From NCBI GenBank assembly GCA_021846565.1, contig JAJZWS010000013.1:1-58309 (forward strand): a stretch of 58,309 nucleotides of DNA. Direction: 5' to 3'. This stretch comes from Bacillota bacterium (lineage in GTDB: Bacteria; Bacillota; Sulfobacillia; Sulfobacillales; JAIMBI01). How positions within the stretch are numbered: the stretch's first letter is position 1; each line of letters opens with the position of its first letter. Below the pieces are notes generated by a model, which saw only the letters and a program-made list of their open reading frames with translations, made no database searches and was not told where the DNA came from. Shown one piece after another: positions 38,422-49,381 of the stretch. The translations under genes were made by a program, and so were the position numbers.

Positions 38422-38515
38422 GGGGGTAGATGGAGGACTGGTGCCTTCCACGGACTTCAAATCCGATGGCCGGCCGGCGGTCGGCGGTGGGTTCGATTCC
38501 CACATACTCCCGCCA
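38422..38515 (+). tRNA. selC: tRNA-Sec (anticodon UCA)
   Basis: Selenocysteine tRNA, 94 nt including an encoded 3' CCA. It has the anticodon loop CTTCAAA between CGGA and TCCG, the very long variable arm with a 7-bp stem (GCCGGCC with GGTCGGC), the T arm GTGGG-TTCGATT-CCCAC and an 8-nt acceptor ending in discriminator G. The D stem is GGAGG with CCTTC. By my pairing the eighth acceptor pair (G-A) and the first anticodon pair (A-A) are mismatched, so decay cannot be fully excluded. UGA decoding also needs selA, selB and selD, none of which is in the window. It sits alone between decayed genes, with its own promoter. Confidence 0.93.
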
Positions 38516-45016: not shown

Positions 45017-45280
45017 TTACGGATTCCTGAGGACAGTGTCATGGTGCCCGCAGATGCGAAATACCAGTACATCGCCAGCCAAGAACTGGCATGTCAAGCG
45101 CAAGTCGCGGGACGCCCGAGCTTCCCAGATGCCGGGCACACCCTGAACCTTTTTCAGATGAAGGCTGGGATGGTTCCGGTCCGCTTGCACGCGATCCACA
45201 GCGTCCAGGACCGCGCGCCGGTCCTGGGGCTGGAGTTCGTTGTAGGCGCGGACAAATCGGCGCGTAAACTTGACCGTCAC
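45017..45280 (-). CDS. RelE/ParE-superfamily toxin
   Basis: An 87-aa RelE/YafQ-type mRNase or ParE-type toxin. The fold is suggested by FTRRFVRAYNELQPQDRRAV, LHLKKVQGVPGIWEARASRD and LRLTCQFLAGDVLVFRICGHH, which is the beta-rich core with a conserved basic residue. It starts at GTG 45280, overlapping the antitoxin stop (GTGA). Type II toxin: cleaves mRNA or poisons gyrase when unbound; RelE-like is likelier. Confidence 0.85.
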   Translation of the reverse strand: MTVKFTRRFVRAYNELQPQDRRAVLDAVDRVQADRNHPSLHLKKVQGVPGIWEARASRDLRLTCQFLAGDVLVFRICGHHDTVLRNP

Positions 45281-45624
45281 GCATCGCCGCCCGTTGTGTC
45301 ATCCGTGGTCTCATGCCCGTTCTCATCGTCCGCCGCAGCCGCCGCTCTCCGGAGGGCATCGGATGCCGTCTCCCCAGGACGACTGGCCACGACGCGCCCG
45401 TGAACTAAATCTTCTTCTGCCGCCTGTTCTGCGGCCTGCCACTCCGCCGTCCAAAACCACTCCTGGTCCGGGTCAATGGCCACCATCTTGCGGGGGCGCA
45501 AGAGCACGCCACGGTCATCGTCGCTGATTTGCACGTCCACGTAGTCCCCTTCGGCCAAGTGCAAGCGCTCGCGGACGGCTTTGGGAAGCGTGATCTGGCC
45601 ATGGCGTGTCAACTTGGTAAGCAC
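45277..45624 (-). CDS. AbrB/SpoVT-type antitoxin
   Basis: A 115-aa antitoxin. The N-terminal swapped-hairpin DNA-binding domain is LTRHGQITLPKAVRERL, then HLAEGDYVDVQISDDDRGVLL; the acidic C-terminal tail (residues 65-115) would wrap the toxin. Start GTG at 45624, preceded by AAAGGAGG at 7 nt, better than the upstream ATG at 45660. It is first in the pair and normally represses its own promoter. Toxin and antitoxin share 4 nt. Confidence 0.88.
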   Translation of the reverse strand: MLTKLTRHGQITLPKAVRERLHLAEGDYVDVQISDDDRGVLLRPRKMVAIDPDQEWFWTAEWQAAEQAAEEDLVHGRVVASRPGETASDALRRAAAAADDENGHETTDDTTGGDA

Positions 45625-45669
45625 CGGCGCCCCTCCTTTACTGGAAAGTCGGGAATCCAACTTTCGTCA

Positions 45670-48550: not shown

Positions 48551-48578
48551 TTGACCGCCGGGTGGGTCCGGCCATAAT
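48551..48578 (+). promoter_or_regulatory. Promoter of the selenoprotein gene
   Basis: TTGACC (-35, 5 of 6) and CATAAT (-10, 5 of 6) with a 16-bp spacer. It predicts a 5' leader of roughly 60 nt before the ATG at 48646. The gene therefore seems to have its own transcript. Confidence 0.7.
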
Positions 48579-48645
48579 AAATAGGCGCCTGGCGTGAGAA
48601 GCACAGATTCGAGAATTGGGCGACGAGGCGAACGGAGGGCGAACT

Positions 48646-48912
48646 ATGTCAAGTATCGTGATTTATGGGACGCCCACCTGAGGCGACTGCATCGGAGCGA
48701 AAGCGTGGCTTTCGCAAGCAGGCATCCCGTTTACCTATCATGACGTGACGGAGGATGCCGAGGCCCGGGATCGGTGGCTGGAGCTGTCGGACGGGGGGAA
48801 CCCGACGATTCTGGTCAATGGACGCATCGTGATGGCGGGGGGCGTGTTCACACCGTCCGTGTTTGACGGCGTGGTGCCGGAGGGGAAGCGTCGAGAGCCG
48901 GCGGACCATTAA
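48646..48912 (+). CDS. Glutaredoxin-like selenoprotein (in-frame UGA read as selenocysteine)
   Basis: Thioredoxin-fold oxidoreductase of 88 residues whose active site is T-U-G-D-C: codon 12 is TGA (48679-48681), followed by C15. The frame stays open for 76 codons after it and continues as a glutaredoxin: GAKAWLSQAGIPFTYHDVT, the cis-proline in GGNPTILVNGR (P53) and the C-terminal VMAGGVFTPSVFDG. Read with TGA as stop, it would be an 11-residue peptide. ATG has GGAGGG 5 nt upstream and its own promoter. Cysteine forms usually carry C-x-x-C at this spot. A hairpin 15 nt past the TGA fits a bacterial SECIS element, and selC is 10 kb away. A selenocysteine glutaredoxin is the best reading; mutation of an ancestral TGC to TGA is the alternative. 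Confidence 0.85.
48697..48715 (+). promoter_or_regulatory. SECIS-type hairpin in the selenoprotein mRNA
   Basis: A perfect 8-bp stem GCGAAAGC / GCTTTCGC closes the loop GTG, with the stem starting 15 nt after the UGA and the loop 23 nt after it. This distance and the G-U in the apical loop fit bacterial SECIS elements bound by SelB. It is coding sequence at the same time. Confidence 0.75.
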
Positions 48913-48927
48913 GGCGTCCGCCGGCTC
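48895..48927 (+). terminator. Bidirectional terminator-like hairpin
   Basis: Perfect 12-bp stem GAGCCGGCGGAC / GTCCGCCGGCTC, loop 9 nt containing the selenoprotein stop codon. It separates the selenoprotein gene from the convergent 149-aa gene. No U-tract follows, so its termination strength is uncertain. Confidence 0.6.
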
Positions 48928-48931
48928 CCGG

Positions 48932-49381
48932 CTACTCCAGGGTAATGGTGACGCGGTCTCCGCGGTCGCTGTCCACCTCCACGATGTGGCCCACGCCCGC
49001 TGTGCGGATCCGGTCCAGCAGCTCGTCGACCGAGATCACCGTGTCGTTGACGGTGACGTGGCGGCCCGGCAGCCAGCTCGCCACTTGGCTCACCAGGCCA
49101 ATCGGCAGGCGAACGTTCACATTCTCGCCGCTGGCCGACTGCACGCGAATGCGGAGGTGCCGCGGGCGATTGTCGGTGCTTGCGGCGTCGGCCAGCACCT
49201 GCTCCGGCGAAAGGGTGCCTTCGGCCACCTCATGCAGCATGCGGCGCAGCTGCTGTGGCCGGTCCGGCTGCTGAAGCCCCTCGGGATGAGGATCCAGCGG
49301 GACGTACAGCCCGAACGCCTCGGCCTCCGTGATGCGCCCTTGAGCCAGCATCGTGAGTACCTGTTGCTGTGGACTCGTCAT
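48932..49381 (-). CDS. SHOCT-like domain protein
   Basis: A 149-aa protein with an N-terminal short helical SHOCT-like segment (VLTMLAQGRITEAEAFGLY) and a second half with RHLRIRVQSASGENVNVRLP then IGLVSQVASWLPG, as in proteins linked to cell-envelope stress modules. ATG at 49381 after AGGAGG. No transmembrane helix. Convergent with the selenoprotein gene; the hairpin lies between them. Function unknown. Confidence 0.75.
   Translation of the reverse strand: MTSPQQQVLTMLAQGRITEAEAFGLYVPLDPHPEGLQQPDRPQQLRRMLHEVAEGTLSPEQVLADAASTDNRPRHLRIRVQSASGENVNVRLPIGLVSQVASWLPGRHVTVNDTVISVDELLDRIRTAGVGHIVEVDSDRGDRVTITLE

Follow-up and report, generated by a model that had tools for sequence, protein, structure and literature searches.

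The stretch analysed here, a window of 58,309 nucleotides from an uncultured Bacillota lineage, raises the question of whether a glutaredoxin-like reading frame that is interrupted by one stop codon at its catalytic position is a broken gene or a gene in which UGA is decoded as selenocysteine (Sec). The frame lies on the forward strand at 48646-48912. It opens with an ATG at 48646, contains a single in-frame TGA at 48679-48681, continues through 76 open codons and ends with a TAA at 48910-48912, which gives an 88-residue product beginning MSSIVIYGTPTUGDCIGAKAWLSQAG when the TGA is read through. The preliminary description had placed this TGA at codon 12, the nucleophile position of a glutaredoxin (T-U-G-D-C), and re-reading of the frame showed that this is exact. 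It had also stated that ordinary ORF calling misses the gene; indeed, annotation would truncate it to 11 codons or overlook it altogether. As argued below, we are highly confident that the gene encodes an 88-residue glutaredoxin-fold selenoprotein to which Sec is delivered at UGA 48679 by means of a downstream hairpin.

Upstream of the frame there are a ribosome-binding site and a promoter-like motif, as had been proposed. The ATG is preceded at a distance of 6 nt by the ribosome-binding site, GGAGGG (48634-48639), whose GGAGG core is invariant in six orthologues. Further upstream, a motif scan detected a sigma-70-like promoter (TTGACC-N16-CATAAT, 48551-48578) matching at 10 of 12 positions; among the orthologue flanks, those of the two closest, G002 and G003, share it and those of G001, G004 and G006 do not. 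At the other end of the gene, a roughly 11-bp inverted repeat rich in G+C (48896-48932; -23.3 kcal/mol for the 37 nt) runs across the stop codon and also encodes the last residues, REPADH. These residues are kept in three members of the genus and the repeat sequence itself in G002 and G003. The repeat sits between two convergent genes and is probably a terminator. The two downstream neighbours, an acyl-CoA dehydrogenase gene and a short convergent gene, are syntenic in G001-G003. Elsewhere in the window, on the reverse strand at 45017-45660, an overlapping gene pair looks from its sequence like a RelE-like toxin with an AbrB-like antitoxin. G002 has the antitoxin-like protein at 99% identity, against 60-93% for the neighbouring proteins, and it did not turn up in the other orthologue flanks compared; it has possibly moved recently.

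The product of readthrough matches the Pfam glutaredoxin family PF00462 with an E-value of 2e-13 and 50.7 bits, above the gathering score of 22.9. The active site reads U12-(G/S)-D-C15 in six orthologues, and P53, the proline of the predicted cis-Pro loop, is invariant among them, in agreement with the glutaredoxin features that had been noticed past the TGA. The glutaredoxin fold is also recovered in the predicted secondary structure and by Foldseek. AlphaFold models of the six orthologues have a mean pLDDT of 83, and the top PDB matches of the predicted fold are the thioredoxin-like protein BC3987 and glutaredoxins, including Synechocystis glutaredoxin A and the dithiol cGrx1.

A good glutaredoxin frame with one stop is also what a pseudogene would look like, all the more since a single base change converts TGC or TGT, the codons of the catalytic Cys, into TGA. 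The comparison with relatives, all of them MAGs, speaks decisively against such a nonsense mutation: TGA stands at codon 12 in all 5 of the 5 orthologues found, which span two genera at 60-86% protein identity, and substitution rates past the TGA are those of a protein. Within the genus, pairwise dN after the TGA is 0.039-0.132 against a dS of 0.24-1.22 (Nei-Gojobori); in wider pairs dN rises to at most 0.29 with dS at about 1-2 (maximum 1.98) or saturated, and four pairs in all are saturated. No further lesion of the frame was found, and the sole length difference inside the conserved core of the orthologue alignment is 6 nt and in frame. The frame beyond the TGA thus evolves as a protein. 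The preliminary description had also considered that the TGA might be private to this strain, with no covariation in the hairpin, and the opposite was observed on both counts. Together with the complete Sec machinery and the covarying hairpin described below, this makes a pseudogene extremely improbable. Outside this group, many homologues, which the preliminary description had proposed to look for, have Cys at the UGA position. The orthologue group itself was found in only two genera of one family: among 398 genomes sampled across the phylum, the window's own was the only one that its profile matched at 1e-15. Three matches in viral contigs were all Cys glutaredoxins, and the Sinorhizobium and Acetoanaerobium matches in a plasmid collection were likewise Cys forms.

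The frame would be conserved just the same if the UGA were translated as a residue other than Sec (Trp or Cys), either by a changed code or by plain readthrough. As to the decoding machinery, a complete Sec set is present in the genome to which the window belongs (3.42 Mb in 134 contigs, 95.7% complete). The Sec reading hung on the presence of selA, selB and selD, and all three were found, at 443 bits for selA, 321 bits over the frame for selB, with its C-terminal match included, and 350 bits for selD, which has an in-frame TGA of its own at the catalytic position (TSKSG-U-GCK). The tRNA-Sec gene announced 10 kb away from the glutaredoxin gene was detected by both ARAGORN and Rfam (67.8 bits) on the forward strand at 38422-38515, with anticodon TCA, 10.2 kb from it within the window; the two genes also share a contig, 7-10 kb apart, in each of the other three genomes searched within the genus (G001, G002 and G003). 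One relative departs from this pattern: in G004, a 97% complete bin with selB and a TGA-bearing Sec-glutaredoxin, no selA and no tRNA-Sec with a full score could be found. The simplest reading is that these genes fall into a gap of the draft bin, although they may really have been lost. Against a reassigned or leaky UGA, TGA terminates 12 of the 22 likely genes in the window, a gene set in which Trp is encoded by 162 TGG codons; moreover, the in-frame TGAs fall at redox Cys positions, and the hairpin persists in the Sec copies but is not maintained in the Cys copies. With selA, selB, selD and tRNA-Sec all present, insertion of an amino acid other than Sec is very improbable. Sec formate dehydrogenases have been reported in Sulfobacillus (PMC4378227), and Sulfobacillus thermotolerans grown on ore upregulates a Sec peroxiredoxin (PMC7409299); if the window lineage is related to Sulfobacillus, its use of Sec is unsurprising.

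Insertion of Sec in bacteria needs a SECIS hairpin, which is bound by SelB (PMC13188914). The hairpin GCGAAAGC-GTG-GCTTTCGC (48697-48715) has a perfect 8-bp stem that begins 15 nt after the UGA, exactly as first described. According to the model quoted in PMC13188914, bacterial SECIS elements have an apical loop of 3-9 nt, an upper stem of 4-16 bp, a G within the first two positions of the loop, usually with G or U next, a UGA-to-loop distance of 16-37 nt and an MFE of at most -7.5 kcal/mol. The predicted element of the window agrees with these sequence and fold constraints: its loop has 3 nt and its stem 8 bp, the loop reads GUG (GUU in G004, G006 and G083), the UGA-to-loop distance is 23 nt and the region folds at -11.6 kcal/mol. 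Its energy is unremarkable, with a z-score of -0.3 to -0.9, and 50 of the 1190 TGA triplets of the window (4%) are followed in SECIS position by a hairpin of 8 bp or more. We consequently rejected the hairpin as stand-alone proof; it is the conserved TGA, the protein-like evolution past it and the covariation that together exceed chance.

This frequency of comparable hairpins, and the fact that the peptide K-A-W-L-S-Q is nearly invariant within the genus, leave room for another reading, in which the UGA is translated and the hairpin simply reflects the conserved peptide, with no role as an RNA element. We compared the stem in 11 Sec copies, namely the six orthologues, the second glutaredoxin of the genome and the Sec-glutaredoxins of G005, G014, G023 and G083. 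Across these, 96.6% of the cells are paired, a value that is partly selected for because the copies were picked for their fit to one hairpin register, and 10 cells carry double changes, those inside the six orthologues being free of this selection. Three pairs covary (C-G to A-U, A-U to G-C or U-G, and C-G to A-U), and pairing fails at the outer pair in G014 and, in G004 and G006, at the second one. The covariation score, from a small sample of 11 sequences of which several are closely related, is 0.395; shuffles give 0.158 +/- 0.034, and not one of the 500 attains 0.395, while slid partners give at most 0.18. In contrast, 19 Cys homologues of the class, some of them with the K-A-W-L peptide, have only 42.1% of the cells paired, and sliding the partners by two or three columns gives 42.1-43.4%, so that the real register does no better. 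Cys homologues with the same K-A-W-L form just 3-6 of the 8 pairs, and in G004, G006 and G083 the peptide switches to R-E-F or K-E-F with both arms of the stem changing together. The difference between Sec and Cys copies indicates that the presence of the hairpin tracks the UGA codon rather than the peptide, and there is very little likelihood that it merely follows from the coding sequence. The decoding of UGA as Sec that had been proposed is thus supported by the machinery, the conserved TGA and the covarying hairpin; adding the computed evidence from protein-level selection past the UGA and from the fold, we strongly infer Sec insertion at codon 12.

Searching the window's own genome with a covariance model of the UGA context and hairpin returned the window gene (E 2e-12), a second glutaredoxin on contig 21 (E 1e-9) and a locus on contig 14 (E 5e-5). 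Both glutaredoxins had been used in building the model and the contig 14 locus had not, so that the latter is an independent success of the UGA and hairpin model. A fourth match (C69, E 9.6) lacks a glutaredoxin-like frame and was set aside as chance. The second glutaredoxin (L003:1480-1731) is a paralogue with the sequence TQPGUGACEAEKAWLSQAG; in its stem an A-U replaces one C-G pair, and Cys counterparts of it occur in its order. The contig 14 locus (L070:1474-1830, at about 4185 of the contig) is a 119-residue ArsC/Spx-like frame with U10 (YHYRGUSTC) and the identical hairpin; it matches Pfam ArsC at 7.6e-13 and reaches 29.7 bits with NF041106, whose cut-off is 85. With SelD, this indicates that the genome has at least three Sec genes besides that of the window. 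More glutaredoxin-type genes of the class have one TGA at the same catalytic position. Six of these (L045, L046, L048, L049, L050 and L052), in G002 (C13), G008, G015, G024, G072 and G074, are without an 8-bp hairpin in the register of the window gene; some have shorter or shifted hairpins, so that these genes may use a SECIS of another shape.

In the mechanism that we propose, SelA, SelD and tRNA-Sec would supply the Sec-tRNA, and SelB would recognise the hairpin 15 nt after UGA 48679 and deliver Sec to the U-G-D-C active site. By analogy with the redox chemistry of UxxC proteins, Sec12 would act as the attacking selenolate and Cys15 as the resolving thiol, and the targets for reduction could be disulfides, oxidised proteins or metalloid adducts. 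Bacillithiol is unlikely as the reductant because no bshC was found in the genome, and the reductant is probably another one. Glutathione is only partly excluded: for its synthesis the search covered the GCS2 type of gshA (PF04107), of which no copy was found in the genome. Tentatively, and with more doubt than belief, we suggest that the two Sec-glutaredoxins, the Sec ArsC/Spx-like protein and Sec-SelD might form a Sec redox set working without bacillithiol and perhaps without glutathione, driven by a thioredoxin-type or other reductase and possibly directed against arsenic or oxidative stress, with the window gene as founder of a Sec-only glutaredoxin subfamily.

In all, the analysis indicates that an uncultured Bacillota lineage uses Sec in at least four proteins. 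That a single class contains both Sec and Cys homologues offers a natural test of how a SECIS hairpin is acquired and lost. Sec-glutaredoxins are among the experimentally studied bacterial selenoprotein families, and both the Sec-glutaredoxin (UxxC) and UXX-star families are already known (PMC13188914). The window gene belongs to this known kind, and its orthologue group possibly constitutes a new subfamily. No NCBIfam model scored above its cut-off for the window protein and the two orthologues scanned, and a new model would mend the annotation of the group.

Among known systems, the UXX-star (seleno)proteins (NF041212, NF041114 and NF041211) are also glutaredoxin-like and have Sec near the N-terminus. 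Every UXX-star model nevertheless falls short of its cut-off for the window protein and the two orthologues scanned, NF041212 reaching 42.7 bits (E 5e-11) in the window protein against a cut-off of 66. The selenoprotein glutaredoxin of the Clostridium oremlandii type (cGrx1; UxxC, PF00462) shares the small glutaredoxin fold and has Sec as the first residue of UxxC. The window protein matches the dithiol cGrx1 structure 7c10, which we take to be the C. oremlandii protein, in a phmmer search at 3e-4, but the sequence similarity is only distant and the active site here is U-G-D-C. The nearest solved relative, both by sequence (9e-7) and by fold (33% identity, rmsd 1.3-1.6), is the thioredoxin-like BC3987 of Bacillus cereus (3zij and 3zit), which has Cys where the window protein has Sec.
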